Assembly (NCBI RefSeq): GCF_019803445.1
Contig: NZ_CP081844.1
Coordinates: 1,376,501 to 1,440,500 of the forward strand
Reading direction: 5' to 3'
DNA: 64,000 bases
Source of the DNA: Caenibius sp. WL
GTDB taxonomy: Bacteria > Pseudomonadota > Alphaproteobacteria > Sphingomonadales > Sphingomonadaceae
Below are positions 3,316 through 64,000 of this stretch, one piece after another. Within the stretch, counting starts at the first letter, position 1, and every line of letters begins with the position of its first letter. Under the pieces are notes generated by a model. The model made no database searches and had not been told where the DNA came from. It saw nothing but the letters and a program-made list of their open reading frames with translations. A program made the position numbers and the translations under genes.

Positions 3316-4851
3316 ATGACAGACGGGCCGGTAGCTGAAACACCTGAGGGCACGGTGCAGCCGATCGTCGCGGAAGGGCGGAACTGCTGGCGGATCGAAC
3401 GGGCCGAGCGCGCCAGCGTGGTGGTGGATGCGGCGGATTATTACCACCTGATCCATGAAGCGATGGACAAGGCGCGCCAGCGTATCCTCATACTCGGCTG
3501 GGATTTCGACACGCGAATCTGTCTCGAACAGAAAAACGGGAAACGGTCCGAAACGCTGGGACACTTCTTCCTCCGGCTGGCGAAAAGCAATCCCGCGCGT
3601 GAAATCGACATTCTCAAATGGAATTTCGGCGCGCTGAAGCAGTTCCTCCATCCCAGAGCGGTCTGGTTCCTCCTGCGCTGGTCGCGCACCAGGGCGATCG
3701 ATTTCCGGCTGGACAGCGCCCATCCGCCGGGATGCAGCCATCACCAGAAAATCGTGGTGATCGACGAGCAATTCGCGGTGTGCGGCGGGATCGATATTTC
3801 CACCGGGCGCTGGGACACGCCGCAACACCGGGATAACGAGCCGGGCCGCCGCCTGCCCGGCGGCAAGCCGTATATGCCCTGGCACGATGCGACGATGCTG
3901 CTGACGGGCGATGTGGCCGGGGCCTTGGCCGATCTCGGGCGGGACCGCTGGCATGTGGCGACCAACGGCCAGCTTCTGCCCCTGCCGCAGGCGAGCGAAC
4001 GGCTGTGGCCCGACGATCTGCCCGCCCAGTTCGAGAACGTCCAAGTGGCGATTGCGCGCACGCGGGCACCGTATCGCGATGTGGAGGAAGTGCGCGAGAT
4101 CGAAGCGCTCTATCTAGACATGATCGCCGCCGCCCGCCGCTTCATCTATTTCGAAAATCAGTATTTCACCTCGGCCAAAGTGGCGGCGGCCATCGCCAAT
4201 CGGATGGAGGAGGCCGATCCGCCCGAGATCGTGATGGTCATGCCGCGCCAGGCCGATGGCTGGCTGGAGCAGATGGCGATGGACGCGGCGCGGGTGCAAC
4301 TGGCCAGGGCCATCGCCAAAGTGGACCGGCTGAACCGCTTCCGCATCTATGTGCCGGTCACCGATGGCGGCACGGATATCTACGTTCACGCCAAAGTGTC
4401 GATTGTCGATGATCGGCTGCTGCGGGTGGGATCGTCCAATCTCAACAACCGTTCGCTCGGGCTCGACAGCGAATGCGATGTGGTGATCGATGCCGGGCTG
4501 GCGGGCAACCGCGATACGCCGCAGGAAATCGCCCGTATTCGCAACCGTCTGCTGGCCGAACATCTGGGCGTGGAGCAAGAGGCCTTCGCCGCCGCTTTCG
4601 CGGAACGCGGCTCTCTCGTCGCCACGATCGAAGCGCTGCGGAGCGGAGGCAAGACGCTGGACCTGCTCGATCTGGTCAAACCCGGCCCCTTCGACGCGTT
4701 CATTGCCGAGAACGAACTGCTCGACCCCGAACATGCCGAGGGGTTTCTCGATCCGCTGGCGGCACGCGGGCTGCGCAAGCAGTGGAAAAGGATTCGCTCC
4801 TGGCGCGGCCGGGCGCGGGGGAAGGGCGGTCGCCGTCAGCCGGTGGGCTGA
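3316..4851 (+). CDS. Phospholipase D / cardiolipin synthase-like protein
   Basis: This 511-residue protein has two HKD motifs, as in the phospholipase D superfamily. The first is H143-x-K145-x4-D150 in HHQKIVVID. The second is H358-x-K360-x4-D365 in YVHAKVSIVDD, followed by the typical GSSNLNNRS. The two motifs form one active site through a phospho-histidine intermediate and act on phosphodiester bonds of phospholipids. No signal peptide or transmembrane anchor is evident, so it is probably cytosolic or peripheral. The C-terminus is strongly basic (RGRARGKGGRR), which may favour membrane contact. Its last 16 bases overlap the end of the convergent MFS gene. Confidence 0.9.
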   Translation: MTDGPVAETPEGTVQPIVAEGRNCWRIERAERASVVVDAADYYHLIHEAMDKARQRILILGWDFDTRICLEQKNGKRSETLGHFFLRLAKSNPAREIDILKWNFGALKQFLHPRAVWFLLRWSRTRAIDFRLDSAHPPGCSHHQKIVVIDEQFAVCGGIDISTGRWDTPQHRDNEPGRRLPGGKPYMPWHDATMLLTGDVAGALADLGRDRWHVATNGQLLPLPQASERLWPDDLPAQFENVQVAIARTRAPYRDVEEVREIEALYLDMIAAARRFIYFENQYFTSAKVAAAIANRMEEADPPEIVMVMPRQADGWLEQMAMDAARVQLARAIAKVDRLNRFRIYVPVTDGGTDIYVHAKVSIVDDRLLRVGSSNLNNRSLGLDSECDVVIDAGLAGNRDTPQEIARIRNRLLAEHLGVEQEAFAAAFAERGSLVATIEALRSGGKTLDLLDLVKPGPFDAFIAENELLDPEHAEGFLDPLAARGLRKQWKRIRSWRGRARGKGGRRQPVG

Positions 4852-46750: not shown

Positions 46751-47761
46751 TCAGAACCAGGCGCGGATGCCGGCCACGAGCAGGACACGGCTGGCATCGT
46801 CCCCTGCCGCGCGGGTCAGGCGGGCGGTCCTGCCGAGATCGCGCTGCCATTCGATCCCGATATAGGGGGCGAATTCCCGCCTGATCTCGTACCTTAACCG
46901 GGCGCCGGTCTGTAGCGACGTCACTCCCGCGCCGAGCCCGAGTTCGGGAATGGCCTGCGCCGAAAAGTTCGCTTCCACGCGTGGTTGGAGGATCAGGCGC
47001 TGGGTGATGCGCTGGTCGTATTCGGCTTCGATCCGCCCGGTCAGTTCGCCCTTGGTGGAAAGGAACATCGCGCCGTCCACCTCGAAAAAGTAGGGGGCGA
47101 GACCCTGCACACCGAGCACGGCATGCGTCCGATCCGGACCGCCGGGGCGCAAATCCTGCCGCACGCCGGCCTGCAGGTCGAACCACGGGCCGATCGCGCG
47201 GCTCCACAGGCCCTGCACTTCGGCGCTGACCGGCTGGCCGAACGCGGCGTGGCCTTCGCTTTTCAGCCACAGTTTGTCACGGTCGCCGCCGTAGCTGAGA
47301 TCGGCTTCCCATAGCCAGCCGTCCGGCCCCTTGCCGGTCTGCGCTTCCAGCCGGTCGATCCGCACGGTCCCCCATGTCATCCGTCCCATTTCCCGCGGCA
47401 GCGCGGCGCGCGATGCGGCCATCGCGCCTGCGGGGAAGACCGTGTCGGCCGCATGGACCGGGCCCGAACGCGCCTCGGGTGGAGGGGGGGCTTGCGGGAT
47501 TTGCGGGTCGGCCCCCCCATGCATCGCGTGCCCGGCATGGGGATTGCTGGCCGGTGTCGCGGGCGCAGCGGGCATAGCGTGCCCTTGGTGGCCAGCCTGG
47601 TCCGCAGGCGCGGGAGGGGCTGCCGTGTGGCCGCCATGGCCCGCGTGATCCATGGTCTGATGGTTTTGCCCGTGATCCCCGCCATGATTGTCATGCTGCG
47701 CCCAGGCGGGAGCAGCGGTGCAAGCGAGCGCGGCAGCTGCGGTGAAAAGTGCGGTTTTCAT
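46751..47761 (-). CDS. copB: Copper resistance outer membrane protein CopB
   Basis: This 336-residue protein has a signal peptide ending PAWAQ (residue 22). A histidine- and methionine-rich region of about 65 residues (DHAGHGGHT, NPHAGHAMHG) binds copper. The following CopB beta-barrel domain starts near MTWGTVRIDRLEAQ and ends with the terminal aromatic IRAWF. It works with CopA in copper detoxification of the envelope. The start overlaps the copA stop by 4 bases, so the pair is co-translated. Length is in the normal range. Confidence 0.93.
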   Translation of the reverse strand: MKTALFTAAAALACTAAPAWAQHDNHGGDHGQNHQTMDHAGHGGHTAAPPAPADQAGHQGHAMPAAPATPASNPHAGHAMHGGADPQIPQAPPPPEARSGPVHAADTVFPAGAMAASRAALPREMGRMTWGTVRIDRLEAQTGKGPDGWLWEADLSYGGDRDKLWLKSEGHAAFGQPVSAEVQGLWSRAIGPWFDLQAGVRQDLRPGGPDRTHAVLGVQGLAPYFFEVDGAMFLSTKGELTGRIEAEYDQRITQRLILQPRVEANFSAQAIPELGLGAGVTSLQTGARLRYEIRREFAPYIGIEWQRDLGRTARLTRAAGDDASRVLLVAGIRAWF

Positions 47762-49503
47762 GCGGTCTCTCCCCCCAGCGGGCGCACGGTCACGACATTG
47801 AACATACCCGCGTGCATATGCATCAGAAGGTGGCAGTGGAATGCCCAGTCGCCCGGCGCATCCGCCGTCAGATCGAAGCGGACGAAGCCGCCCGGCAGGA
47901 CATTGACAGTGTGCTTGCGCGGCTGGCGAATGCCCTTGCCGTTCACCAGTTCGAAGAAGAACCCGTGGAGGTGGATGGGATGCGTCATCATCGTGTCGTT
48001 GACGAGCTTGAAGCGCACCCGTTCGTTCCGGGCGAGACGGATCGGTTCGGTCTGTTCGGCAAAAGTCTTACCATCGAACGACCACATGTAGCGTTCCATG
48101 CTGCCGGTCAGATGGATTTCGATCTCACGCGTTGACGTGCGGGTGTCGGCAGGCGGGGCCAGTGTTTCGAGATCGCCGTAGGTCAGCACCCGGTGGCCCA
48201 CATTCTCCAGCCCCAGACCCCGGTCGTTGGTGCGGTCGAGCGGCATCGGCGCGATCATTTCGACCCCGTGATTGAGATCGACCCCCGGCGCGGCGGAACC
48301 ATCGCGCATCGTGTGCTTCATCCCATGGCCCATGCCTTCGTGTCCTGCCATGCCGGCCATCGCCGCCTCATCCATGCCCATGTCGCGCATGGTCAATGTC
48401 GGGCGTTCGCGCAGGGCGGGGACCGGCGCCATCATGCCCTGGCGCGGGGCCAGTGTCGCGCGGGCATAGCCCGAACGATCGATGGTTTCGGCAAACAGCG
48501 TGTAGGGCTGGTTGCCGGGGGCAACCACCACGTCATAGGTTTCGGCCACACCGATCTGAAATTCATCGGTTTCCACCGGGCGCACGTCCTGCCCGTCGGC
48601 ATTGACCACCTGCAGCGGCAGGCCGGGGATGCGCACATTGAAAATCGTCATCGCCGAAGCGTTGATGATCCGCAGCCGCACCCGCTCGCCCGGCGTGAAC
48701 AGGCCGGTCCAGTTGGCATCCGGCCCTTGTCCGTTGACGAGGTAGGTATAGGCCGCGCCGGTCACGTCGGAAATGTCGGTGGGCGACATGCGCATCCGGC
48801 CCCAGCGTAGCCGCTCCGCCGCGCCGGGCCCTTTGCCCGCGAGCAGCGAGGCGAGCGTTTCCTGGTCGCGCTGGAAGTAATCCGGCTGCTGCTTCAGTTT
48901 GGTCATGATCGTGTGCGGATGCATGAAGCTCCAGTCCGACAGCACGATCACATGTTCCCGGTCATAGGCGACGGGATCGCGATGCGCCGGATCGATCACC
49001 AGCGGGCCATAGAGGCCGATCGCTTCCTGCAGGCCGGAATGGCTGTGATACCAGTATGTGCCCGCCTGCCGCACGGGAAATTCGTAAGTGAACGTCTCAT
49101 GCGGGCGGATACCGGGGAAGCTGACGCCGGGCACGCCATCCATCTGGAACGGCAGGAGAATGCCGTGCCAGTGGATCGAGCTGTCTTCCTCCAGATGGTT
49201 GGTGACGGCAATCTGTACATTCCGCCCTTCACGCAGACGGATCAGCGGGGCGGGCAAGGTGCCGTTGACTGTCACCGCGTGGCCGGTGCGGCCGCCCACG
49301 GTGAACGGGGTGCGGGCGATGGCGAGTTCGATGCGTTCGCCGGTCAGAACGTCGCACCCCGGTGTGGGCCCCTGTGCGGGCAGAGTGGCATGGTGATCGT
49401 GCGCGGTTTGGGCGCGGGCCCAGCCGGGCAGCAGCAGCGCGCTGCCGCCGAGCGCGAAAGCGCTCTGGACCAGACGGCGTCGGTCGAGTGTGGTCTTGTG
49501 CAT
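47758..49503 (-). CDS. copA: Periplasmic multicopper oxidase CopA
   Basis: This 581-residue enzyme has a twin-arginine signal with DRRRLVQSAF (residues 6-15) followed by a hydrophobic stretch. Type 1-3 copper-site motifs are present: SIHWHG, YWYHSHSG, HPIHLHG and HCHLLMHMHAGMF. A methionine-rich loop (GMDEAAMAGMAGHEGMGHGM) binds extra copper. It oxidises Cu(I) in the periplasm. The ATG at 49503 follows GAGGA. Upstream on the same strand lie a small secreted Cys/His protein and csoR, so the operon is copper-controlled. Confidence 0.94.
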   Translation of the reverse strand: MHKTTLDRRRLVQSAFALGGSALLLPGWARAQTAHDHHATLPAQGPTPGCDVLTGERIELAIARTPFTVGGRTGHAVTVNGTLPAPLIRLREGRNVQIAVTNHLEEDSSIHWHGILLPFQMDGVPGVSFPGIRPHETFTYEFPVRQAGTYWYHSHSGLQEAIGLYGPLVIDPAHRDPVAYDREHVIVLSDWSFMHPHTIMTKLKQQPDYFQRDQETLASLLAGKGPGAAERLRWGRMRMSPTDISDVTGAAYTYLVNGQGPDANWTGLFTPGERVRLRIINASAMTIFNVRIPGLPLQVVNADGQDVRPVETDEFQIGVAETYDVVVAPGNQPYTLFAETIDRSGYARATLAPRQGMMAPVPALRERPTLTMRDMGMDEAAMAGMAGHEGMGHGMKHTMRDGSAAPGVDLNHGVEMIAPMPLDRTNDRGLGLENVGHRVLTYGDLETLAPPADTRTSTREIEIHLTGSMERYMWSFDGKTFAEQTEPIRLARNERVRFKLVNDTMMTHPIHLHGFFFELVNGKGIRQPRKHTVNVLPGGFVRFDLTADAPGDWAFHCHLLMHMHAGMFNVVTVRPLGGETA

Positions 49504-49601
49504 AGGTGTCCTCATTCCGGCGCGGGACCGGATGTGTCAGGCGGGCAAGCATCGCGCGCGAAAGCGCGGCTCGCTGGAAAACGAACGGAGTGGAAAGAGC
49601 T

Positions 49602-49934
49602 TTATGCCCGGCGTGGCGGCGGCGGATCGACCCCGGTATGAGTGGACACCAATATGCGGTGGGAAGAAGGATAGGTCGAATAGGGTACAGGGGTATAGGC
49701 CGGACCCATCTCCGGCGCATCCGGCAGGAAGCCGCCATGCGCCGCCAGGCACACAGCAAGGCAGTTTTCCTGATGTGCGTCATGCGGCGCGGGCTTGGCA
49801 GGCGCGCTGCCGCGGCAATCGTCGGCCATTGCGGCATGAGCCGGTGCGGGCGCTGCCTCTGCGCCCGCCAGTGTGGGGGCGAACGCCAGCATCACCGCCG
49901 AAAGGAATGCCAGCAGGGTGGCCATGCGGGGCAT
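49602..49934 (-). CDS. Small secreted Cys/His-rich protein of the copper cluster
   Basis: This 110-residue protein has a signal peptide ending near LAGAEA (about residue 23). The mature part contains HAAMADDC, then APHDAHQENCLAVCLAAHGG, with histidines and three cysteines that could bind copper. The C-terminus is proline-rich. I do not recognise a specific family, although DUF2946-like proteins of copper operons have a similar plan. It starts 4 bases behind the csoR stop and lies ahead of copA. A copper-binding role is inferred from composition and place. Confidence 0.6.
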   Translation of the reverse strand: MPRMATLLAFLSAVMLAFAPTLAGAEAAPAPAHAAMADDCRGSAPAKPAPHDAHQENCLAVCLAAHGGFLPDAPEMGPAYTPVPYSTYPSSHRILVSTHTGVDPPPPRRA

Positions 49935-49938
49935 GCGA

Positions 49939-50211
49939 TTACCGCCCCACCTTGCCGAACAGATCAATCAATTCGTTGAATTTTTCCCGTTGCGCCACCG
50001 CATCGCCGCCTTGCAGCGCGTCCTCGATGCAATGGCTGGCATGGATCGCCAGTACTTTGGACTTGGCCGCGCGCAGGGCCGCTTCCATCGCGGACATCTG
50101 CTGAAGCACATCGATGCAGTAACGTTCTTCCTCCATCATGCGGACGATTCCACGCGCCTGTCCTTCGATACGCTTCATACGCGCGATTTCCTTGGCGAAT
50201 TTCTGGTGCAT
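49939..50211 (-). CDS. csoR: CsoR/RcnR-family copper-responsive repressor
   Basis: This 90-residue all-helical repressor has the DUF156 pattern. C32 (RYCIDV), H57 and C61 (HASHC) match the Cys-x-His-Cys Cu(I) ligands of CsoR. IARMKRIEGQARGI is the N-terminal DNA-contact helix. Copper binding would release it from DNA. ATG at 50211 gives the normal length; a longer frame would place the gene inside its own operators at 50253 and 50286. It is transcribed away from the copper ATPase. Confidence 0.9.
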   Translation of the reverse strand: MHQKFAKEIARMKRIEGQARGIVRMMEEERYCIDVLQQMSAMEAALRAAKSKVLAIHASHCIEDALQGGDAVAQREKFNELIDLFGKVGR

Positions 50212-50252
50212 CGAGGCGACGGTTCCCTGGCGGAGCAAACGGTTCGTTCCAT

Positions 50253-50269
50253 ATACCCCCACTGGGTAT
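50253..50269. promoter_or_regulatory. CsoR operator 1
   Basis: ATACCC-CCACT-GGGTAT is a perfect 6+5+6 dyad with the GC-centred ATACCC/GGGTAT arms of CsoR sites. It lies nearest the csoR start and probably controls the minus-strand copper operon. Confidence 0.75.
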
Positions 50270-50285
50270 CTTGCGCAAATGAAAA

Positions 50286-50302
50286 ATACCCGGTAGGGGT
50301 AT
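50286..50302. promoter_or_regulatory. CsoR operator 2
   Basis: ATACCC-GGTAG-GGGTAT is a perfect dyad with the same arms as operator 1, centred 33 bases away (about three helical turns). It lies 34 bases ahead of the copper ATPase start and probably controls it. Confidence 0.75.
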
Positions 50303-50336
50303 GTCATTCATTGTTGCACAAGCGATTGGAGTCGTC

Positions 50337-52706
50337 ATGGCCGCCCAGCATTCAGAATCTCATTGCTGCCACAATCACGGGCACAATCACGATCATGGTG
50401 GCGGTCATGCAGGGGGCACGGTCATCGATCCGGTATGCGGGATGACGGTGGACCCGGAAAAATCGCCGCATCACACGATGCACGATGGGCAGGATTTCCA
50501 TTTCTGTTCAGCGCGCTGCCGGGAAAAGTTCATCGCCGATCCGCAGCGCTATCTCGAACCGGAAAAATACGCGGCCGAACAGCCCAAGGATGCGATTTAC
50601 ACTTGCCCGATGCACCCGGAAATCCGCCAGGCGGGGCCGGGCACCTGCCCGTTGTGCGGCATGGCGCTGGAGCCGGAGGAAGTCTCCCTCGATCAGGGGC
50701 CGGACCCGGAATATATCGACATGCGCCGCCGTTTCGGGATCAGCGCGCTGTTTACCGTGCCCCTGTTCCTTTATGCCATGGGCGAAATGCTCCCCGGCCA
50801 GCCGCTCGCGCGGGTAATCTCGGCCGAATGGGGTCAATGGCTGCAATTGGCCCTGGCGACACCGGTGGTGCTGTGGGGCGCGTGGCCGTTCTTCGTCCGC
50901 GCGGTGCAGTCGCTCAAGGGCTGGCATCCCAACATGTTCACGCTGATCGGGTTGGGCGTGGCGATCGCCTATGGCTTCAGCGTGGTGGCGACATTCGCGC
51001 CCGGCCTTTTCCCGGCGGCGTTCCACGATCATCATGGGCGGGTGGCCGTCTATTTCGAAGCGGCGGCGGTGATCACCACGCTTGTTCTGCTCGGGCAGGT
51101 GCTGGAACTGAAAGCGCGCGGGCATACTTCGGGCGCCTTGCGCGCGCTGCTGGAACTGGCGCCGCCCGTCGCCCTGCGCATTGGCGCGGACGGCGCGGAG
51201 CAGGAAGTGCCGTTGGACGATGTGCGCCGGGGGGACCGGCTGCTGGTGCGGCCCGGTGCGAAAGTGCCGGTGGACGGCACGGTCGCCAGCGGCGCTAGCC
51301 ACATCGATGAATCGATGATTTCGGGCGAACCCTTGCCGGTGAGCAAGGCCGTGGGCGACCGGGTGACGGGCGGCACGGTCAACCAGACCGGCAGTTTCAC
51401 GATGGTGGCGGAACAGGTCGGCGGGGAAACGCTGCTGGCCAAGATCGTCCAGATGGTCGCCACCGCGCAGCGCAGCCGCGCGCCGGTGCAGCGCTTGGCC
51501 GATCTGGTGGCGAGCTGGTTCGTGCCCGCGGTGATCGTGATCGCAGTGGCGGCGTTCGCCGTCTGGGCGGTCTGGGGCCCGCAGCCCGCGCTCGCCTATG
51601 CCCTCGTCAATGCGATTGCGGTGCTGATCATTGCCTGCCCCTGCGCACTGGGGCTGGCCACGCCGATGTCGATCATGGTCGGCATGGGCAAGGGGGCGCA
51701 GAATGGCATTCTGATCCGCGATGCCGAAGCGCTCGAAACCTTCGAGAAAGTCGATACCGTGGTGGTCGACAAGACCGGCACGCTGACCGAAGGCAAGCCC
51801 GCGCTGGTGGACGTCACACCGCCGTCGGGGATGGAAGAAAACGCCCTGCTGGCGCTGGCTGCTGCTGTCGAACGGACGAGCGAGCACCCGCTGGCCGCCG
51901 CCATCGTGGCCGGTGCGCGCGAACGCGGGATTGCACTGGCCGGGGCGGAGGATTTCCAATCCATCACGGGCGAGGGGGCGGTGGCCCATGTCGGCGGGCA
52001 ACGTGTCGCTATCGGCAACGACAAGCTGATGCGGCGCGAAGGGGCGTTCGATCCGCAGTGGGCGGACAGGGCCGGACAGGCGCGGGCCGAAGGGCAGACG
52101 GTGATGTTCGCCGCTGTCGATGGCAAAGCGGCCGGGCTGCTGGCCGTGGCGGACCCGATCAAGGCCAGCAGCGCCGATGCGGTGGCCCGCCTGCACAAGG
52201 CCGGTATCCGCGTGGTCATGCTGACCGGCGATGCCGAAGCGACCGCGCGGGCGGTGGCCGCCAGGCTGGGGATTGATGAAGTGCACGCCAATGTCTCGCC
52301 CGAGGACAAACACCGCGTGATCGGCGAATTGAAAGCGGCGGGCCATGTGGTTGCCATGGCGGGTGACGGGATCAACGATGCCCCGGCGCTGGCCGCGGCC
52401 GATGTGGGCGTGGCGATGGGCACCGGCACGGATATCGCCATGGAAAGCGCGCGGGTGACGCTGGTCAGCGGCGATCTGGCGGGCCTGGCCAAGGCGCAGC
52501 GGCTGTCGCGCCTGACCATGCGCAACATCCGGCAGAATCTGCTGTTCGCGTTTGGCTACAACGCGCTGGGTGTGCCGGTGGCGGCAGGGGTGCTCTATCC
52601 GGCGTTCGGGCTGCTGCTGAGCCCGATGCTGGCGGCGGCGGCGATGAGCCTGTCGTCCGTTTCAGTGATCGGCAATGCGCTGCGTTTGCGCCGTACCGCG
52701 CTTTGA
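50337..52706 (+). CDS. Copper-translocating P1B-type ATPase
   Basis: This 789-residue pump starts with a His-rich tail ([14 protein letters not shown]). A YHS domain ([18 protein letters not shown]) and a metal-binding segment [21 protein letters not shown] follow instead of classic HMA domains. The transport motif is [12 protein letters not shown] (CPC), the phosphorylation site [13 protein letters not shown], then SEHPLAAA and the hinge [16 protein letters not shown]. It exports Cu(I) or related ions across the inner membrane with ATP. The start at 50337 follows GGAG, while an earlier ATG overlaps operator 2. It is divergent from csoR. Confidence 0.94.
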
Positions 52707-55592: not shown

Positions 55593-56102
55593 TCAGGCCG
55601 GTGTTTCCAGCATCGCCCCGATGATCCGCCCCATCACCCGCCGGGTGGCGCGCAGATCCTCGTCGCTCGTTTCGCCCACCGCATGGCGCAGCATCGCGCT
55701 CACTTCCGGGATAATCGCCGCGCGAGTGGCACGCCCTTGCTCGGTCAGGCTGATCAAAGTCACGCGCCGGTCTTCCTTCGGCCTGGTGCGTTCGATCAGG
55801 CCTTTGCGATGCAGGCTGGCAACGAGGCGGCTGGTCGCGGCCGGGTCCTTATAGCTGCGTTCGACCAGTTGCGTCTGTTGCAGCGGGCTTTCCTGATGCA
55901 ACAGATTGAGAATCACGAATTCGCGCGCTGTCAGCGGCAGACCCTTGGCTTCGATAATCGCATTCAGCGCGCGCACCAGCCCGTCCGCCGCCCGGCTGAT
56001 CTGGAACCCGATCACGGACGGATAGACGGTGAAGGAGAACATCTCCTCGACATCGTGGGCGCGGGCGATATCCTGCCGCGAAGAAGGGGTCGACCTTGGC
56101 AT
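55593..56102 (-). CDS. MarR-family transcriptional regulator
   Basis: This 169-residue winged-helix protein shows the MarR core: LTAREFVILNLLHQESPLQQTQL, then the recognition helix DPAATSRLVASLHRKGLIERTRPKEDRRV, where DRR is in the wing. It is the last gene on the minus strand after the first Rieske oxygenase gene, with 67 bases between. A dyad upstream of that oxygenase is its likely site. It may sense a hydrophobic or aromatic ligand of the catabolic genes. Confidence 0.88.
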   Translation of the reverse strand: MPRSTPSSRQDIARAHDVEEMFSFTVYPSVIGFQISRAADGLVRALNAIIEAKGLPLTAREFVILNLLHQESPLQQTQLVERSYKDPAATSRLVASLHRKGLIERTRPKEDRRVTLISLTEQGRATRAAIIPEVSAMLRHAVGETSDEDLRATRRVMGRIIGAMLETPA

Positions 56103-56169: not shown

Positions 56170-57297
56170 TCAGGCGCTTTGCAGCGCCTTTTGCGGCGGG
56201 GCGTGGAACACATCGACGGCGATGCCCTTTGCTTCCCGGAGATCGAGCGTGACCGTGCGGCCATTGACCCGTTTCTGTAGTTCGGCGGCCTTGTCGCGCG
56301 GGTTGAAGAACTGGCGATACCAGGTCCGCAGGCGGCCATAGGGGCCATCGGCAGGCAGAGCCATCGGGTTGATACAGTCGCGCTTGTTGGCCCAGATTTC
56401 CACGTCCTGCCCCAGCCCGTGGACGGCGTTCATCGAAAATTCCCGCGCCAGCGCGATATCTTCCGCGCTTGGCGCCTGCGTGCCATCGTTCACCTGCACC
56501 ATGATCCCACTCCACACCCGCTCGCGGCCATCGTCGATCGGGGTGCTGGCGATCAGCCAGAAGCCGGGAAACCGGCCCTGCATATCGGATTCGAGAATGC
56601 CCGGTCCGGTCCGCCAGGTATCGAGCATCAGCATGTTGTATTCGTGATTGGCCACTTCGTTGCGGTGCCGTGTCCCGAAGTACTGGTGGACCACGTGATC
56701 CACGAACTCATTGGAAAAATAGATGCATTCGGTCGACCCGTGGACCGGCACCATGTGGCCGAGATCGGCCATGTTGTCGACGATTTCGCAGCCATGAATG
56801 TCGAGATCGCCAAGGTGCGCCATGTTCCATTCCACCCAGCCCGGTTCGCCGTAATGGTTACCGAAACTGGGCAGCGGATAATCCGGTTCCAGCCCTTCGG
56901 GATCGTACCAGGTCCACAGGATGCCGGCGAATTCGGTGACCGGGAACGTCTTGAGGCAGGCGGCCTTGGGAATGAAATCGGAATAGGGAATGTGATCGCA
57001 TTGCCCGTTCTCGTCGAAGCGCCAGCCATGGAAGGGGCAGCGGATCGATTCGCCCTGAACGTGTTCGCCGTCGAGCACGATGTAGGACGTGGTGTTCTTC
57101 GCCAGATGCGCGCCCATGTGCGGGCAATAGGCTTCGACCAGCCGGGCTTTGCCGCTCTTTCCGCGATAGAGGACCATATCCGTGCCGAAATAGCGCACCG
57201 AACTCGGCGTTTCGGTCGCATCTTCAGTCCTGCCGATCATGAACCAGCCACGGGGAAACGCGAACGCGCCGAAACCGTAATCCTGCGCCTTTGCCAT
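56170..57297 (-). CDS. Rieske non-heme iron oxygenase, KshA-like
   Basis: This 375-residue oxygenase has Rieske ligands C58-x-H60 (YCPHMGAHL) and C87-x2-H90 (RCPFHGW). The mononuclear iron site has D178-x2-H181-x4-H186 in NMADLGHMVPVHG. The layout is like KshA, the oxygenase component of 3-ketosteroid 9-alpha-hydroxylase. Such enzymes hydroxylate their substrate with electrons from a reductase, and no reductase gene is seen here. It is divergent from an SDR gene and followed by MarR. The substrate is unproven. Confidence 0.88.
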   Translation of the reverse strand: MAKAQDYGFGAFAFPRGWFMIGRTEDATETPSSVRYFGTDMVLYRGKSGKARLVEAYCPHMGAHLAKNTTSYIVLDGEHVQGESIRCPFHGWRFDENGQCDHIPYSDFIPKAACLKTFPVTEFAGILWTWYDPEGLEPDYPLPSFGNHYGEPGWVEWNMAHLGDLDIHGCEIVDNMADLGHMVPVHGSTECIYFSNEFVDHVVHQYFGTRHRNEVANHEYNMLMLDTWRTGPGILESDMQGRFPGFWLIASTPIDDGRERVWSGIMVQVNDGTQAPSAEDIALAREFSMNAVHGLGQDVEIWANKRDCINPMALPADGPYGRLRTWYRQFFNPRDKAAELQKRVNGRTVTLDLREAKGIAVDVFHAPPQKALQSA

Positions 57298-57367
57298 GCA
57301 GGTCTCTCCATCCGTTATTGTTGTCTTTGGCAGGAACCTAATACACACCCCGGCAAAGGCGAAGCCC

Positions 57368-57389
57368 TTTGTGAGGCGGCGCTTACAAA
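57368..57389. promoter_or_regulatory. Dyad between the Rieske and SDR genes
   Basis: TTTGTGAG-GCGGCG-CTTACAAA is an 8+6+8 inverted repeat with one mismatch in the 132-base divergent gap. It is a candidate MarR operator controlling both genes. Confidence 0.45.
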
Positions 57390-57429
57390 AATGAATGGCC
57401 CGGGCGGGCGGAAGATGGAGGAAGCGGGA

Positions 57430-58212
57430 ATGGCGGAAAGGCCGGTTGCGATCGTCACGGGCGGCGGCACGGGGGTGGGGGCGGCCTCTGCCCGGGCATT
57501 GGCGGCGCGAGGGTACGATGTGCTCGTCAACTATGCGCATAGCGCGGACGCGGCGGAACAGGTGGTGATGGAAATTCGCGCCATGGGCGGCGATGCCTGC
57601 GCGATGCAGGGTGATGTCGCCGAGGATGAGGCGTGCCGCGCGCTGGCCGAAGCGGCGCTGGCCCGTTGGGAGCGGATCGATGCACTGGTCCATTCGGCGG
57701 GCGTGACGCAGTTCGTTTCCATGGGCGATCTCGCCGGGCAGAACGCAGCGGATTTCCATGCGATCTATGCGGTCAACGTGATCGGCGCCTATCAGATGGT
57801 ACGCGCGGTGGAACCCGCGCTGCGGCGCAGCCCGTGTGGGGCTATCGTGATGATTTCCTCCATCGCCAGTCTTAACGGCACAGGCAGTTCCTATGCCTAT
57901 GCTGCGTCGAAAGGGGCGCTCAATACGTTGACTGTCTCGCTGGCGCGCAATCTTGCGCCGATCCGTGTCAATGCCGTGTTACCGGGGATGATCGATGGGG
58001 ACTGGCTGCGCCGCGGGCTGGGCGATGCGGGGTTCGAACAGGCGCGCCAGGCGTTCGAACAGTCCTCCACTCTGGGGGTGATCTGCCAGCCGGACGATAT
58101 CGCCCGGATGGTGGTGCCGCTGGTCTGCGATGCGACAGTAGTGACCGGGCAATTGATCACTGCCGATGCCGGCGCCTTGCTCGGCCGTCCGCCGCAGGTC
58201 GGTGCGCGCTGA
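57430..58212 (+). CDS. Short-chain dehydrogenase/reductase
   Basis: This 260-residue SDR has TGGGTGVGAA as the cofactor loop, HSAG as the strand-4 motif, the catalytic serine in MISSIASL and YAASK with the catalytic tyrosine and lysine. VLPGMIDGDWLRR is a C-terminal substrate loop. It is likely NAD(P)-dependent. ATG at 57430 follows GGAGG at 8 bases; two earlier in-frame ATGs are weaker. It faces the Rieske oxygenase divergently and leads to an MFS permease on the same strand. Role in the same pathway is inferred. Confidence 0.88.
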   Translation: MAERPVAIVTGGGTGVGAASARALAARGYDVLVNYAHSADAAEQVVMEIRAMGGDACAMQGDVAEDEACRALAEAALARWERIDALVHSAGVTQFVSMGDLAGQNAADFHAIYAVNVIGAYQMVRAVEPALRRSPCGAIVMISSIASLNGTGSSYAYAASKGALNTLTVSLARNLAPIRVNAVLPGMIDGDWLRRGLGDAGFEQARQAFEQSSTLGVICQPDDIARMVVPLVCDATVVTGQLITADAGALLGRPPQVGAR

Positions 58213-58313
58213 TCGTGCGGGGGTAATTCCGTTCGCGCCAGCGGGTCACAATATGATCCGATGCCCGCCCGCCGGGGCGACCCTTGCTTGCCAACGGCGA
58301 GGGCCCGTGTAGC

Positions 58314-58336
58314 CTCCCGCTCAAAATAAACGGGAG
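58314..58336 (+). promoter_or_regulatory. Hairpin overlapping the MFS ribosome site
   Basis: CTCCCG (58314-58319) pairs with CGGGAG (58331-58336), and the right arm contains most of the GGGAGAG ribosome site for the ATG at 58347. Folding would reduce translation initiation, so it may be a translational control element. Confidence 0.35.
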
Positions 58337-58346
58337 AGTTCGGGTC

Positions 58347-59585
58347 ATGTATTATGGTTGGCGCCTCGTCGTCATCGCCGCGATAGCCTATATGCTGACG
58401 ATGGGGGCGACCTACAGCGCGCTGGGCCTGTTCATCATTCCGGTATCGCAGGAATTCGGCCTGTCGCGGGCGGAAATGAACAGTGCGCTAATTCTGCTCA
58501 ATCTTGGCGGGGCCGGGCTCAGCCCGTTCATCGGGCGGATGCTGGACCGCTATTCCCCGCGCCGGATCATGACGGCGGGAAGCGTGCTGTTCGGCTTCAG
58601 CTTCGCGGTGCTGAGCTTTTCGCAATCGGTTCTGCTCGACGCGGTGATTATCGCTCTGCCGCTGGCCGCTGCCGTGCCTTCGGCCGGAACGCTGACGATG
58701 TCGGTGCTGCTGGCGCGATGGTTCACGGTCCATCGCGGCAAAGCGATGGTGCTGTCCGCGCTGGGCGTGTCGGTGGGCAGCATCGTGATGACGCCGGCGA
58801 TCGGCTGGCTGCTCGAACAGCAGGGCTGGCGTTCGACACTGCTGATCACCGGGGTGGTCTGCACGGCGATTCTGTTCGTCCTGTCGACATTGATCCGCGA
58901 ACGGCCAGGGCCTGAGGATAAAGAGCCTGGGGCCACACCCGAGGCGTTGGCGCGTTTGCAGGTGCTCATGGCGGCCGGGAGCAAGCCGATGCGCATCGGC
59001 GAGATTCTGCGGATGCCCAATTTCTGGACCATCTGTCTCAGTTCATCGCTTGCCATGGGGCTGGCGCAATCGCTGTCGATCACCTTCGTGCCGCTGGCTC
59101 TCGATCACGGCCTGTCGGTGATGGAGGCGACAACGCTGATGTCGATCACCGGCATTTCCGCGATTGCCGGTATCCTTGCCCTGTCCGCCGTCGCCGACAA
59201 GATCGAGCGGAGCCTGATCCTGACGGCGTTCTATGTACTGGGGGCGGTGCTCAATGCCGCGCTGCTGTTCAGCCATGGTTTCGTCATGCTGGCGGGGTGC
59301 GCGGTCATGCTGGGCGTGGCGGCGGGGGCGATGGCGCCGGTCTTCTTCGCGCTGGTGGCCGATCATTTCGGCACTGCCTCCTTCGGCACGGTGCGGGGGC
59401 TCATGGCCCCGTTCCTGGCGGTGATCGGGGCCATTCTGGTCCGTTTCGCCGGGGAGGTTTTCGACCGCACGGGCAATTACGACCTGCTGTTCACGATTTA
59501 CATCTTCGCCGAACTGGGGGCGGCGGCACTGATGTTCAGCACCCGATATTGTCATCGCAGGGCTATGGCGCCGACATTCGCCTGA
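58347..59585 (+). CDS. MFS transporter, monocarboxylate/OFA type
   Basis: This 412-residue permease starts MYYGWRLVVIAAIAYMLTMG, the usual opening of monocarboxylate-type MFS proteins. Its N-terminal half includes GRMLDRYSPRRIM, and the second half begins with MRIGEILRMPNFWTICLSS. Twelve hydrophobic segments are evident. It may import the substrate of the neighbouring catabolic genes. The start follows GGGAGAG, which is inside a hairpin. A TetR gene lies 107 bases downstream. Confidence 0.86.
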   Translation: MYYGWRLVVIAAIAYMLTMGATYSALGLFIIPVSQEFGLSRAEMNSALILLNLGGAGLSPFIGRMLDRYSPRRIMTAGSVLFGFSFAVLSFSQSVLLDAVIIALPLAAAVPSAGTLTMSVLLARWFTVHRGKAMVLSALGVSVGSIVMTPAIGWLLEQQGWRSTLLITGVVCTAILFVLSTLIRERPGPEDKEPGATPEALARLQVLMAAGSKPMRIGEILRMPNFWTICLSSSLAMGLAQSLSITFVPLALDHGLSVMEATTLMSITGISAIAGILALSAVADKIERSLILTAFYVLGAVLNAALLFSHGFVMLAGCAVMLGVAAGAMAPVFFALVADHFGTASFGTVRGLMAPFLAVIGAILVRFAGEVFDRTGNYDLLFTIYIFAELGAAALMFSTRYCHRRAMAPTFA

Positions 59586-59692
59586 GGGAAACCGGGGGAG
59601 GGCGGTTCCATTCTCCCGTTCCGGGCACGAGGGGCTTTTGCGATCCTGCGCGAGGCTGTTAAGGCTTGCAGCCGCAACAAGGATCAAGACGA

Positions 59693-60280
59693 ATGACGAC
59701 CACCGCCGCTCTCCCCCGCCGTGAATCGAACAAGGCCAAGATTCGCAGCGCCATCGTCGATGCCGCGGTCATCAAGTTCGGCGAAAAGTCGGTCAACGGC
59801 ACAACGATGGATGAAATCGCCGAGGAGGCGAAAATCAGCCGCGCGACCCTGTTCAACTATTTCCCCAGCAAGGCGGATATCGTGGCCGCGATTGTCGAGC
59901 AGATGGACGAGGCATTCATCGCCCAGCTCGACAAGTTCATCGAATTCGGCCTGCCGCTGGAAAAGCGGGTGAAGGAATTCTTCAGCGCCCATGCCCGCGA
60001 TCTCGAGGGGCGCTGGCTGAAATTCCGCCCGATGGTGGGAATTTCGGTGCAGGGCTGGGGGGAAGACACCGGGGCGCAGCGCTTCGCCCGGCTGAATGCG
60101 GCGTTCCTGCGGCTGGTGCACGACGCCCCGGAAAGGGAACGCGGCGCTTGCGCCGAGGTGCTGACTGGTACTTATGTCGGTATTGTGCAGAACTGGCGTT
60201 TCGAGTCGGATTATGCGCTGGAGGAACATCTGGTCGCGGCGGTCATGTTGATTATGAAATCGATACAATGCCCTGATTAA
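59693..60280 (+). CDS. TetR-family transcriptional regulator
   Basis: This 195-residue regulator has the TetR helix-turn-helix at about residues 30-56 (TTMDEIAEEAKISRATLFNYFPSKADIV). The ligand domain contains WLKFRPMVGISVQGWGED. Its start ATG at 59693 gives the standard N-terminus. It lies ahead of the amidohydrolase-Rieske-ACAD genes on the same strand with 76 bases between. A perfect palindrome in that gap is its likely operator. Confidence 0.88.
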   Translation: MTTTAALPRRESNKAKIRSAIVDAAVIKFGEKSVNGTTMDEIAEEAKISRATLFNYFPSKADIVAAIVEQMDEAFIAQLDKFIEFGLPLEKRVKEFFSAHARDLEGRWLKFRPMVGISVQGWGEDTGAQRFARLNAAFLRLVHDAPERERGACAEVLTGTYVGIVQNWRFESDYALEEHLVAAVMLIMKSIQCPD

Positions 60281-60320
60281 AAGGCAGAAATTACCTTCTT
60301 GCATTCTGCCGAAAAAATAA

Positions 60321-60334
60321 TAGACTTAAGTCTA
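60321..60334. promoter_or_regulatory. Perfect 14-bp palindrome before the catabolic operon
   Basis: TAGACTTAAGTCTA is fully self-complementary and lies 23 bases upstream of the amidohydrolase-fold gene and 41 bases after the TetR stop. It is a candidate TetR operator for the operon. Confidence 0.55.
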
Positions 60335-60356
60335 AGTTTTGCATGGGAGAGTGCTG

Positions 60357-61232
60357 ATGGGTGTGCCTAAGGATATTGGCGTAATCGATACGATGTTGGG
60401 TATCCCGACCCGGGAAGACCGGGCCGACTGGTATACCTTCTTCCGTCCGCTGCTGCGCGACAAGGAAAGCCTGCAGGCATTCGAAATGCCCGCCCAGTAT
60501 ATGTTCAAGGGCGTGCCCGATATCGGCGAGCATGACGACTACATCGCCTGGACCGTCGAGCAGATGGACAAGCACAATATCCAGCAGGCCATGATCGGGC
60601 TGGACGACCGCTGGTCGGAATCCGCGCTCGAAGCGAAACGGCGTTTCCCGGACCGGTTCTTCTTCGATGCCCCGATCGATCCCAACGGCGGGATGGAAGA
60701 AGTGCGCCGGATCAAGCGGCTGCACAAGGAACACGATCTGCGCGCCGTCAGCGTGTTTCCTTCGGGCACCTATCCGCAGGTTCCCATCGATCACAAGTAT
60801 ATGTTCCCGATCTACGCCACGTGCGTGGAACTGGATATTCCGATCCTGATGAACGTGGGCGTTCCGGGGCCGCGCATCCCGATGGCCCCGCAGCGGGTCG
60901 AACTGCTGGATGAAGTCTGCTGGTTCTTCCCCGAACTGAAGATCGTGATGCGCCATGGCGCCGAACCGTGGGACGATCTGGCCGTGAAGCTGATGCTCAA
61001 ATGGCCGAACCTCTACTATTCGACTAGCGCTTTCGCGCCCAAGCATCTGCCCAAGTCGATCATCAACTACGCCAACACCCGCGGCGCGGACAAGATCATC
61101 TACGCGGGCTATTTCCCGATGGGTCTCAGCCTCGACCGGATTTTCAGCGAGCTCGATCAGCTTCCGCTGAAGGACGAAGTATGGCCCAAATTCCTGCGCG
61201 ACAATGCACGCCGCGTGTTCAAGCTCGACTAA
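60357..61232 (+). CDS. Amidohydrolase-fold protein with depleted metal site
   Basis: This 291-residue protein resembles COG2159 amidohydrolases (TIM barrel). The expected HxH at the end of strand 1 is absent: the place reads VIDTMLGIP (about residues 9-17). The strand-5 histidine position reads ILMNVGVP (N166) and the strand-8 aspartate segment reads IIYAGYFP (247-254). Only H200 in MRHGAEPW remains at a ligand site. It may be a structural or non-metal protein. ATG at 60357 has GGGAG upstream. It starts an operon with a Rieske oxygenase and two acyl-CoA dehydrogenases. Confidence 0.8.
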   Translation: MGVPKDIGVIDTMLGIPTREDRADWYTFFRPLLRDKESLQAFEMPAQYMFKGVPDIGEHDDYIAWTVEQMDKHNIQQAMIGLDDRWSESALEAKRRFPDRFFFDAPIDPNGGMEEVRRIKRLHKEHDLRAVSVFPSGTYPQVPIDHKYMFPIYATCVELDIPILMNVGVPGPRIPMAPQRVELLDEVCWFFPELKIVMRHGAEPWDDLAVKLMLKWPNLYYSTSAFAPKHLPKSIINYANTRGADKIIYAGYFPMGLSLDRIFSELDQLPLKDEVWPKFLRDNARRVFKLD

Positions 61233-61244
61233 GGAGTATCGGTT

Positions 61245-62348
61245 ATGAGTGATCAAGTGCTAGACGCCCGTACCGCGCCTGTCGCCACCTGGCAGATCGT
61301 CGGTGCGATGAACCCCGAAGAGCGCGCCGTGTGGCGCATGGCTGATATCCAGAACAACGTCAGCGCCGAAGAACGCGGCGTGGACAAGATTCCGTTCGCT
61401 ATCGGCTGGTATGCCGCCTGCTATTCGGACGAAATCGCCGTCGGCGAAGTCAAGCCGCTGCGCGCGTTCGGCAAGGAACTCGCCATGTGGCGCGGTGAAG
61501 ACGGCCAAGTTCGCATCATCGACGCCTATTGCAAGCATCTCGGCGCGCATATGGCCTATGGCGGCAAAGTGCATGGCAACATGCTGGAATGCCCGTTCCA
61601 CGCATGGCGCTATGACGAAGCGGGTTCGGTCAAGGAAATCCCCTATGCCCGCAACATTCCGCCGCAGGCGAAGCGCCCGTGCGGTGGCTGGCCGACCGAG
61701 GAAGGCAGCGGCTTCATCTGGTTCTGGTATCACCCCAATGGCGAAGCGCCGCAGTGGGAACGGGTCGATTTCCCCGAAGTCGGCCGCGACGATTACACGG
61801 AATTCGATCGTTACGAATGGATCGTGCATGCCCCGCTCCAGTTCATGGCTGAAAACGCGGCGGACACGGCCCATTTCAAGTATATTCACGGGACCGCGAC
61901 CTTCCCGGATGCGGAGATCAAGTTCGACGGCATTCGCCGTACCGGCTTGGTCAAGGCCAAGATGGGCACGCCCAAGGGCGAGGTCGATGGCGAGATTCTG
62001 AATATGAATGTCGGCCCGGGCCAGGCGGCCACGCGGTTCAGCGGTATTTCGGAAACGCTGCTGATTGCCGGCATGACGCCGATCGATCATGACAAGGTGC
62101 GGGTGCGGTTCGCTTTCACCCAGCCCAAGACGGAAGCCGAAGGCCCGATGGGCGGGCTGGCCCGCGCGCTGATCCGCGACATCATCAAGCAGTTCGACCA
62201 GGACAAGGTGGTGTGGGATCGTCAGCGCTTTGTCGAACGCGCGCTGATCTGCGACGGCGATGGCCCGATCGGTGATTTCCGCCGCTGGTACTACCAGTTC
62301 TACGTCGAATGGAACGGCCGCGGTCCGCAGGCCATGGCAGCAGAGTAA
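61245..62348 (+). CDS. Rieske non-heme iron oxygenase
   Basis: This 367-residue oxygenase has Rieske ligands C96-x-H98 (YCKHLGAHM) and C116-x2-H119 (ECPFHAW). The mononuclear iron ligands are N204, D207, H210 and H215 in ENAADTAHFKYIHG. It differs from the KshA-like protein at 56170 in both motifs and length, so it is a separate type. AAGGAG at 61230 precedes the ATG. It lies 12 bases after the amidohydrolase-fold gene and 8 bases before the first acyl-CoA dehydrogenase. No reductase is visible in the window. The substrate is unknown. Confidence 0.9.
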   Translation: MSDQVLDARTAPVATWQIVGAMNPEERAVWRMADIQNNVSAEERGVDKIPFAIGWYAACYSDEIAVGEVKPLRAFGKELAMWRGEDGQVRIIDAYCKHLGAHMAYGGKVHGNMLECPFHAWRYDEAGSVKEIPYARNIPPQAKRPCGGWPTEEGSGFIWFWYHPNGEAPQWERVDFPEVGRDDYTEFDRYEWIVHAPLQFMAENAADTAHFKYIHGTATFPDAEIKFDGIRRTGLVKAKMGTPKGEVDGEILNMNVGPGQAATRFSGISETLLIAGMTPIDHDKVRVRFAFTQPKTEAEGPMGGLARALIRDIIKQFDQDKVVWDRQRFVERALICDGDGPIGDFRRWYYQFYVEWNGRGPQAMAAE

Positions 62349-62356
62349 GCCCGGCA

Positions 62357-63478
62357 ATGCAATTCACATTCAGCGAAGAGGAGACGCTCCTTCAGGAAAG
62401 CGTCTCCGGCTTCCTCGCAACGCACGGCAGTTCCGCTGCCGTGCGTAAAGCGATGGAAAGCGACCTCGGCTACGATCCGGCGCTCTGGCAGTCGATCGTG
62501 GGTGAAATGGGTATGGGCGGCATCGCCTTTCCGGCCCGCCTCGGCGGTGCGGAAATGGGGCATGTCGGCTTTGCCATCACGATGATGGAAATGGGGCGCG
62601 TGCTGCTGCCGTCGCCCTATTTCTCCAGCATCGGCCTGGCCGCGCAGGCCATTCTCAACGCCGGAACCGACGCGCAGCAGGATACGCTTCTGCCCGCGAT
62701 CATTGCGGGTGAAACGATTGCCGCGCTCGCCTGGCGCGGATTGGAACGCACGCCCGCCATCGCGGTGCGTCTCGATCAGAACGGGCAGCTCAATGGGGAA
62801 GCGGGGTTCGTGCCCTATGCCCATGCGGCCGGCCTGTTGGTGGTTGCGGCGCTGGATGGGGCCGGAAAAACCGTTCTGGCGGCCATTCCGGCCGATGCCC
62901 CCGGTGTCACGATCGAACGCCATGTCTCGATGGACCTGACCCGCCCGCTTGCCACCGTGCGCTTCGCCGGTGTGGTGGTCGCGCAGGATCGGATTTTGGG
63001 TGACGGCAGCGATGCCGCGGCTGCTCTGGAGCGGACGCTCGACCTTGCGCGGATCGCTCTGGCCGCTGAAAACGCGGGCGGGGCCGAAGGGGTTCTCGAT
63101 CTGACGGTTGCCTATACCAAGGATCGCGTCCAGTTCGGCCGGCCCATCGGCAGCTTCCAGGCTTTGAAGCACCGGATGGCCGACATGATGGTGGAAGTGG
63201 AAACGGCGAAAACCGCAGCCTATTACGCTGCGTGTGTCGTCGATGAAGCCTCCGACGAACTGGCGGAAGCGGCAGCGATTGCCTCGTCCTACAGCGCGGA
63301 CGCCTTCATGGGTTGCGCGGGCAACGCAATCCAGTTGCATGGCGGGATCGGCTTCACCTGGGAACATGACGCGCACCTCTTCTTCAAGCGTGCCCGGGCC
63401 AATGCCGTTCTGCTGGGTGATCCCACATCGCAGCGGGTGCGGATTGCCGACATGATCGGCCTGGAAAAGGTGGCGTAA
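62357..63478 (+). CDS. Acyl-CoA dehydrogenase, first of an adjacent pair
   Basis: This 373-residue flavoprotein has the FAD-contacting DRVQFGRPIGSFQALKHRMA (about residues 255-275) and the C-terminal LHGGIGFTWEHD region. The start MQFTFSEEE at 62357 fits the family. Adjacent pairs of acyl-CoA dehydrogenase genes are known to make heteromeric enzymes acting on bulky substrates such as steroid side chains in actinobacteria. The second member starts 1 base after its stop. The pairing is inferred from gene order. Confidence 0.88.
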   Translation: MQFTFSEEETLLQESVSGFLATHGSSAAVRKAMESDLGYDPALWQSIVGEMGMGGIAFPARLGGAEMGHVGFAITMMEMGRVLLPSPYFSSIGLAAQAILNAGTDAQQDTLLPAIIAGETIAALAWRGLERTPAIAVRLDQNGQLNGEAGFVPYAHAAGLLVVAALDGAGKTVLAAIPADAPGVTIERHVSMDLTRPLATVRFAGVVVAQDRILGDGSDAAAALERTLDLARIALAAENAGGAEGVLDLTVAYTKDRVQFGRPIGSFQALKHRMADMMVEVETAKTAAYYAACVVDEASDELAEAAAIASSYSADAFMGCAGNAIQLHGGIGFTWEHDAHLFFKRARANAVLLGDPTSQRVRIADMIGLEKVA

Positions 63479-63479
63479 G

Positions 63480-64000
63480 ATGCGGACAGAATTCACTCCC
63501 GAACAGGAAGCGTTCCGCCGCGAAGTCGCCGAATGGCTGGAAGAACAGCTTTCCGGGCCGTTCGCTTCGATCCGCAACCTCAACAGCATGAGCGACAAGA
63601 TTCCTGAGCGTCTCGCCTGGGAAAAAGCGCTCGGCAAGGCGGGTTATAGCGCTATCGCCTGGCCGCAGGAATATGGTGGGCGCGGGGCCAGCATCGCCGA
63701 ACAGGTGATCTTTGCCGAAGAATATGCGCGCGCTGGCGCTCCGGGCCGGATCGGCCATCTGGGCGTCACCATGGCCGGGCCGACGTTCATCCACTTCGGC
63801 ACGGAAGAGCAGAAGAAGGAATTTCTGCCCCCGATCCTGAGTGGCGATGTCCTGTGGGCACAGGGCTTTTCGGAACCCAATGCCGGGTCCGATCTGTCGA
63901 ATATCCGCACCAAGGCGCGCCTCGAAGACGGCCCCAACGGCCCCGAATGGGTGATCGATGGGCAGAAGATCTGGACCAGCCTTGCCCAGCACGCGCAATG
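63480..64000 (+). CDS. Acyl-CoA dehydrogenase, second of pair (partial, cut by window end)
   Basis: The frame starts MRTEFTPEQEAF at 63480 and stays open for 173 codons to the window end. AGYSAIAWPQEYGGRG and WAQGFSEPNAGSDL are the N-terminal acyl-CoA dehydrogenase motifs. It is the likely partner of the protein encoded just upstream. The C-terminal half, with the FAD and catalytic residues, lies outside the window. Confidence 0.88.
   Translation, partial: MRTEFTPEQEAFRREVAEWLEEQLSGPFASIRNLNSMSDKIPERLAWEKALGKAGYSAIAWPQEYGGRGASIAEQVIFAEEYARAGAPGRIGHLGVTMAGPTFIHFGTEEQKKEFLPPILSGDVLWAQGFSEPNAGSDLSNIRTKARLEDGPNGPEWVIDGQKIWTSLAQHAQ

Follow-up and report, generated by a model that had tools for sequence, protein, structure and literature searches.

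How do sphingomonads remove the side chain of bile salts? A 2021 review named this a key open point (PMC8399759), and in 2025 side-chain removal was still called 'yet largely unknown' (PMC12175502). The question is raised by a gene cluster that begins near the right-hand end of a 64,000-nucleotide stretch of the chromosome of Caenibius sp. WL (the window; positions 1376501-1440500 on the 3.45-Mb member of the two contigs that make up the 3.49-Mb genome). Within the window the cluster comprises genes for a major facilitator superfamily (MFS) transporter, a TetR regulator, an amidohydrolase-fold protein (AMH), a Rieske oxygenase (Rieske 2) and two acyl-CoA dehydrogenase subunits. For this analysis the sequence was extended 51 kb beyond the window on the same chromosome, so that 115 kb were read altogether, with an extended ruler that continues the window numbering.

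Identity of the cluster

A 2026 paper describes bsd I, a cholate-induced cluster of Caenibius tardaugens with the order transporter, TetR, amidohydrolase, monooxygenase, Scd4AB beta, Scd4AB alpha, SclA, MaoC and alpha/beta hydrolase, in which the amidohydrolase is ~21-fold up in cholate (PMC12882949). The window cluster and its extension hold all nine genes in this order, and the nine proteins are 74–94% identical to those of C. tardaugens NBRC 16725, a member of the same genus and the comparison genome for the identities given here. Croceicoccus estronivorus is also among the best named relatives (Rieske 2 86% identical). Given this orthology, the region is best read, with a rough probability of 0.8, as a cluster of the bsd I type that breaks down the C5 carboxylic side chain of bile salts, with its left part lying in the window. 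It is an already published kind of cluster found in another organism, to which we add an operator candidate and an idea for two unexplained enzymes.

A first-pass annotation of the window had proposed a steroid-like substrate, for which the bile-salt side chain is now the best reading. Every gene that it grouped together was present, the MarR gene lying just outside the range that it described, and the cluster continues past the window end as it supposed, with ligase, MaoC and alpha/beta hydrolase genes coming next beyond 64000. Its single unit running from MarR to the dehydrogenases, by contrast, was ruled out, as the published bsd I opens at the transporter and the short-chain dehydrogenase/reductase (SDR) gene is missing in C. 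tardaugens. There, the MarR gene and a first Rieske gene (Rieske 1) likewise adjoin the cluster, and the gap between Rieske 1 and the MFS gene is only ~270 bp, so that no SDR gene lies between them. Loci L015 (C. estronivorus) and L016 both contain the TetR-to-hydrolase set, and neither showed a close Rieske 1. For these reasons MarR and Rieske 1 are taken as a conserved pair of their own, probably outside the core unit, and the SDR gene as an addition in the window lineage. Rieske 1 is probably of the ring-hydroxylase type.

It is improbable that the cluster serves some other steroid or terpenoid acid (a sapogenin, resin acid or synthetic steroid) and not bile salts. Relatives of Rieske 2 and AMH do occur in Hellea contigs and on megaplasmids carried by Sphingobium strains with names that point to tomato (the host field being empty), and in neither group would bile salts necessarily be the chief supply. 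However, the cluster that is 74–94% identical is induced by cholate (PMC12882949), and SclA of Sphingobium sp. Chol11 is described as a ligase for the C5 side chains of bile acid derivatives (PMC8399759).

Coupling of AMH and Rieske 2

The two least explained genes of the cluster, those for AMH and Rieske 2, travel together across the family. Among 249 family genomes (AMH at E <= 1e-60, Rieske 2 at E <= 1e-90, adjacency read from coordinates), AMH was found in 28 and Rieske 2 in 24, and all 24 Rieske 2 genomes have AMH. The genes are within 1.1 kb of each other on the same strand in 23 of these; only genome G016 departs from this arrangement. A second set of 85 Rieske 2 loci consisted of the best 80 of 267 named relatives, which lean to close relatives, and five plasmid loci added by hand; many are on short contigs. 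AMH was present in 73 of these loci, immediately upstream of Rieske 2 in 70; 68 had the ligase, 47 an amidase of the type found on plasmid pNL2, and three MaoC. Where the sequence reached 6 kb or more upstream and 8 kb or more downstream (51 loci), the counts were 46 for AMH, 46 for the ligase and two for MaoC. As judged from gene content, the conserved core is ligase, AMH and Rieske 2, with the hydratase, and hence hydration, outside it, since MaoC occurs in only 3/85 loci.

The amidohydrolase-fold protein

AMH has the TIM-barrel fold of the Amidohydro_2 family, as indicated by Pfam and by matches of its AlphaFold model (mean predicted local distance difference test score 81.6; residues 22–55 mostly <50). 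The closest fold was that of BB4693 (3IRS; Z 25.9, root-mean-square deviation 2.8, 259 residues aligned), and the next matches were decarboxylases and LigJ-type hydratases at Z ~20. The usual metal ligands of this fold are, we assume, an N-terminal H-x-H or equivalent, a beta-5 His, a beta-6 His and a beta-8 Asp. Three of the four are lost in AMH: D13-x-M15 stands in place of the H-x-H (a place read from sequence alone), and alignment to the LigW-type proteins 4QS5 and 4INF puts Asn168 at the beta-5 His place and Tyr254 at that of the beta-8 Asp, with His202 retained. D13-x-M15, Asn168, His202 and Tyr254 are identical in 62/62 AMH sequences, 39 of which, chosen to spread over identities, entered the structure alignment. 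By these alignments the site is conserved yet is no standard metal site, and AMH is unlikely to be a metal hydrolase.

These substitutions bear on the published interpretation, proposed for C. tardaugens from annotation and induction, in which the amidohydrolase cleaves glycine or taurine conjugates and ordinary beta-oxidation removes the side chain, with MaoC as a Shy1-like hydratase (PMC12882949). We consider this unlikely as a whole, even though a MaoC gene is present both here and in the Caenibius type. Since the metal ligands are lost in all 62 sequences, the suggested deconjugation of bile salts by AMH appears unlikely, and elsewhere in the genome (at 1200379) lies a gene whose product is 66% identical to the pNL2 amidase of Novosphingobium aromaticivorans F199, an enzyme taken from its gene order as Bsa type. 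In addition, MaoC was not found in 82/85 loci, many of them short, and no induction was seen for the candidate Sal aldolases in C. tardaugens (PMC12882949).

The fold matches of AMH also include LigW2, dihydroxybenzoate decarboxylases, DitZ (8UYR) and 6M2I, as would be expected of an amidohydrolase-fold oxygenase (of the DitZ or aminoisobutyrate monooxygenase type) or a LigW-type decarboxylase. DitZ-type oxygenases and LigW-type decarboxylases depend on bound metals, however, and the ligand positions that can be aligned are lost in AMH; such an activity is therefore very unlikely and was set aside. We favour instead a role for AMH as a non-metal lyase that partners Rieske 2, a serious candidate to which we nonetheless give slightly less than even odds.

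Rieske 2 and its paralogues

The genome contains nine KshA_C regions, which fall into six full proteins of a first class, two of a second class and one fragment. The six first-class KshA-like proteins, Rieske 1 included, have a spacing of 24–26 residues between the CxH and CxxH parts of the Rieske motif; the longer spacing corresponds to an insertion in the Rieske domain common to all six. The second class, with a spacing of 17, consists of Rieske 2 and a protein at 217434 (38% identical to each other). The fragment, a 137-residue frame at 838627-838926 with a KshA_C part and no Rieske motif, is probably a gene remnant. Rieske 1 and Rieske 2 are indeed as unlike as the first-pass annotation held them to be, at 29% identity and with spacings of 26 and 17 residues.

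Might Rieske 2 nevertheless be a further 3-ketosteroid 9alpha-hydroxylase, acting on side-chain-bearing steroids and paired with side-chain genes by mere co-regulation? It has a KshA_C domain, its relatives keep the Rieske motif (85/85) and the iron motif N-D-H-H (84/85), and its nearest solved folds are KshA1, KshA5 and Mycobacterium tuberculosis KshA (TM-score on the query 0.74–0.76, 24–28% identity; 43 of the 86 sequences, window included, were used in the structure alignment, chosen to spread over identities). An actinobacterial KshA, moreover, accepts side-chain steroids (PMC8399759). Against this, Rieske 2 differs in Rieske spacing from the full first-class proteins of the genome and is only 29–30% identical to them, and one of these, at 3109055, sits with HsaA- and HsaC-like genes in a trio (3.109–3.112 Mb) that matches the pNL2 trio of F199 at 73, 73 and 66% identity. 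The presence of AMH in 24/24 family genomes with Rieske 2 likewise counts against it. We thus regard a 9alpha-hydroxylase as unlikely and prefer a side-chain hydroxylase. In Chol11, hydroxylated compounds were reported for sclA and scd4A mutants, with Nov2c228 as a suspected enzyme.

The acyl-CoA dehydrogenase pair

The best PDB matches of the alpha and beta subunits are Tcur3483 (1.3e-59) and Tcur3481 (2.4e-41), which are partners in 6WY8/6WY9. Glu250, in an H-E-R stretch, is present in 20/20 alpha sequences and the matching beta position is A, G or S in 14/14 sequences (only sequences of >50% or >40% identity were counted). We take Glu250 to be the catalytic base, of the isovaleryl-CoA dehydrogenase type. 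These comparisons, with adjacent subunits and the Glu in alpha only, support a heteromeric acyl-CoA dehydrogenase, as had been suspected at first pass, and of the kind that acts on steroids. In such complexes the catalytic Glu is found in one subunit only, and the Thermomonospora curvata enzyme favours C3 over C5 side chains (PMC8399759).

A candidate TetR operator

In 4/4 genomes of the genus the palindrome TAGACTNNAGTCTA is found exactly once, in every case 22–24 bp ahead of the likely ATG of the AMH gene, and the reversed control gave 0 occurrences. The likely true AMH start is the ATG at 60357, which matches relatives. The palindrome also precedes AMH in L014 and Rieske 2 in L021 and L024, where the TetR relatives are 47 and 40% identical, and TAGACANNTGTCTA precedes AMH in L022, L126 and L127 (TetR relatives of 41–44%). 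In L028 two copies of the palindrome lie elsewhere in the locus, and no copy was seen in the 140 bases inspected in L017 and L019, both of which have TetR relatives. Neither of the two operator strings published for C. tardaugens was present in the 115 kb read from the window genome, which was accordingly judged not to be that of C. tardaugens itself. Both of these published bsd I strings are contained in C. tardaugens NBRC 16725; there they stand at 3928 and 9069 of locus L124, in the opposite intergenic regions from the placement in the paper (PMC12882949). From its position and recurrence, TAGACTNNAGTCTA is the predicted TetR operator and a better candidate than the published strings.

The remainder of the pathway

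Ring-cleavage genes, which the first-pass annotation did not see in the window, exist on the same chromosome but are not part of this unit. A ring-degradation region ~1.6 Mb from the cluster (3045000-3117000) holds HsaA-, HsaC-, HsaD-, KstD- and CoA-transferase-like genes and thiolase genes; several paired acyl-CoA dehydrogenase genes also lie there. Its top NCBIfam rows were HsaA (365 bits against a cut-off of 450), HsaC (243 against 450), BphD (166 against 462) and HsaD (160 against 400), 2-oxopent-4-enoate hydratase (353 against 409), 3-ketosteroid delta-1-dehydrogenase (497 against 789) and, above its cut-off, acetyl-CoA C-acetyltransferase (651 against 591). The N. aromaticivorans protein WP_011906908 is an Hsh3 homologue (PMC12175502), and a 67% homologue of it is encoded at 3099082. 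The genome therefore contains homologues of an Hsh-type dehydratase, the amidase and ring-degradation enzymes, with most ring genes scoring under the NCBIfam cut-offs. As for the ferredoxin reductase also missing from view at first pass, two PF00970 hits and one PF14759 hit were found in the genome and none was near a Rieske gene, other reductase types not being searched. In line with this result, Chol11 and C. tardaugens are reported to have no KshB (PMC8399759).

Proposed route of side-chain removal

In the route that we propose, TetR would repress the cluster via TAGACTNNAGTCTA before the AMH gene until a bile-salt-derived ligand lifts the block. The SclA-type ligase would then make the 24-oyl-CoA, and the two-subunit dehydrogenase, with alpha E250 as base, would convert it to the delta-22 enoyl-CoA, the subunit pairing being drawn from sequence and the substrate from Chol11. 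Rieske 2, supplied with electrons by a general ferredoxin system, would hydroxylate a carbon at the base of the side chain; AMH, its metal site lost, would act as an acid-base lyase that breaks C17-C20. The chemistry that we prefer would place the hydroxyl group on the delta carbon of the delta-22 24-oyl-CoA, C17, so that a vinylogous retro-aldol reaction could release a 17-ketone and a C5 enoyl-CoA. This step is modelled on KshA, whose target, C9, holds the delta position of the 3-keto-delta-4 ring and where C9-C10 is cut: after C9 hydroxylation by KshA, ring B opens by retro-aldol (PMC8399759).

That sphingomonads take the whole C5 side chain off in one cut by C17 hydroxylation and retro-aldol is a tentative and somewhat doubtful idea. 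With such a cut it would be understandable that Chol11 is reported to have no Shy1, Sal1, Sad or C3 side-chain enzymes (PMC8399759), and the idea fits the hydroxylated products of the sclA and scd4A mutants. By title and abstract we found no paper describing a C17 or retro-aldol mechanism for these bacteria, subscription papers and preprints lying largely outside the coverage. A novel side-chain pathway in Chol11 was reportedly proposed in an earlier paper, as told by papers that cite it.

Several observations weigh against the preferred reading of the cluster and its route. The loss of metal ligands does not imply lyase activity, and a scaffold or binding role for AMH is possible. The coupling has gaps in both directions: at the threshold used, Rieske 2 was missing from four of the 28 genomes with AMH, and of the 69 loci that have 3.5 kb or more of upstream sequence, 7 have Rieske 2 with no AMH nearby. 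Three of these 7 (L017, L019 and L021) encode proteins 71–82% identical to Rieske 2. The MaoC gene of the Caenibius-type cluster fits ordinary, Shy1-like hydration, as the 2026 authors suggest (PMC12882949), and the hydroxylation in Chol11 could be at C9 according to the 2025 paper (PMC12175502). The top NCBIfam row of the ligase, steroid-24-oyl-CoA synthetase CasG, reached 393 bits against a cut-off of 750. This and the top rows of the beta subunit (IpdE2, 226 against 450) and the alpha subunit (pimeloyl-CoA dehydrogenase large subunit, 223 against 624) are signs of family-level likeness and not equivalog calls. The coupling of Rieske 2 and AMH, with AMH an unlikely metal hydrolase, reduces the open pathway question to one two-enzyme assay, and the locus offers a concrete operator candidate.

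Features of the locus

The coordinates of the features are collected in Table 1. The true start of the ligase gene is probably at 64943, behind an AGGAG site. A plasmid megablast returned no place matching >80% of the query.

Table 1 Genes and predicted operator of the bsd I-type cluster and its left flank (identities are to C. tardaugens orthologues).
Feature	Position	Strand	Evidence
MarR regulator	55593..56042	-	Pfam MarR E 1.7e-14; 73%, same place in C. tardaugens
Rieske 1, KshA-like	56170..57297	-	KshA_C E 9.8e-54, Rieske 1.5e-18; 26-residue Rieske spacing; 79%
SDR	57391..58212	+	No counterpart at corresponding place in C. tardaugens; outside conserved unit
MFS transporter, opening gene of bsd I-type cluster	58347..59585	+	Pfam MFS_1 E 1e-45; 82%
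TetR, predicted cluster regulator	59693..60280	+	Pfam TetR_N E 1.5e-14; 74%
Predicted TetR operator TAGACTTAAGTCTA	60321..60334		Once per genome in 4/4 genus genomes, upstream of AMH gene
AMH, Amidohydro_2-fold protein	60351..61232	+	Pfam E 2.1e-24; without canonical metal ligands; 92%
Rieske 2, Nov2c228-type by gene order, predicted side-chain hydroxylase	61245..62348	+	KshA_C 1e-29, Rieske 1.7e-21; 87%
Acyl-CoA dehydrogenase beta, Scd4AB-type	62357..63478	+	No catalytic Glu; 87%
Acyl-CoA dehydrogenase alpha, Scd4AB-type	63480..64664, cut by window end at 64000	+	E250; 94%
CoA ligase, SclA type	ends 66610 (extended ruler)		86%
MaoC hydratase	66610-67092 (extended ruler)		79%
Alpha/beta hydrolase	67185-67946 (extended ruler)		85%

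Near the cluster, at 71201-73528 of the extended ruler, lies a sulfatase gene (Pfam E 2.7e-58), which might act on sulfated steroids; a formylglycine-generating-type protein, recognised by eye, is encoded downstream of it (74952-75872). Further along, a 654-residue protein (79284-81248) consists mostly of short ANISNASISTADISTANVSQ-like repeats and is followed by two related proteins of ~370 residues. On the other side, at window positions 47758-52706, copper-type genes were recognised by eye: a multicopper-oxidase-like protein, a small regulator and a P-type ATPase-like protein.

Comparison with known systems

The closest known system is bsd I of C. tardaugens, which shares gene order, high identity and the TAGACTNNAGTCTA palindrome with the window cluster and differs in that the window genome has the SDR gene between Rieske 1 and the MFS gene. 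Nov2c221-230 of Chol11 is alike in its ligase, monooxygenase and dehydrogenase-pair functions and in having no KshB (PMC8399759, PMC12175502), a likeness taken from published description; unlike the window cluster, Chol11 is reported to lack the TetR gene (PMC12882949). The order reported for Nov2c230-227 is ligase, amidohydrolase, Rieske and amidase (PMC8399759). Novosphingobium plasmids likewise differ from the window in having the order ligase, AMH, Rieske and amidase, with Lrp/AsnC regulators, and F199, a confirmed bile-salt degrader, has the set ligase, AMH, SDR, Rieske 2 and amidase.

For the single enzymes, BB4693, an Amidohydro_2 protein of unknown function, resembles AMH in fold, at 24% identity, and when aligned shows neither a beta-5 His nor a beta-8 Asp. 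KshA shares the Rieske and KshA_C domains, the iron ligands and the fold with Rieske 2, which stands apart from it in its low identity in the fold comparison and its linkage to side-chain genes. The dehydrogenase pair finds its counterpart in Tcur3481-Tcur3483 (6WY8), whose two partners are the best PDB hits of beta and alpha, with the Glu in one subunit.

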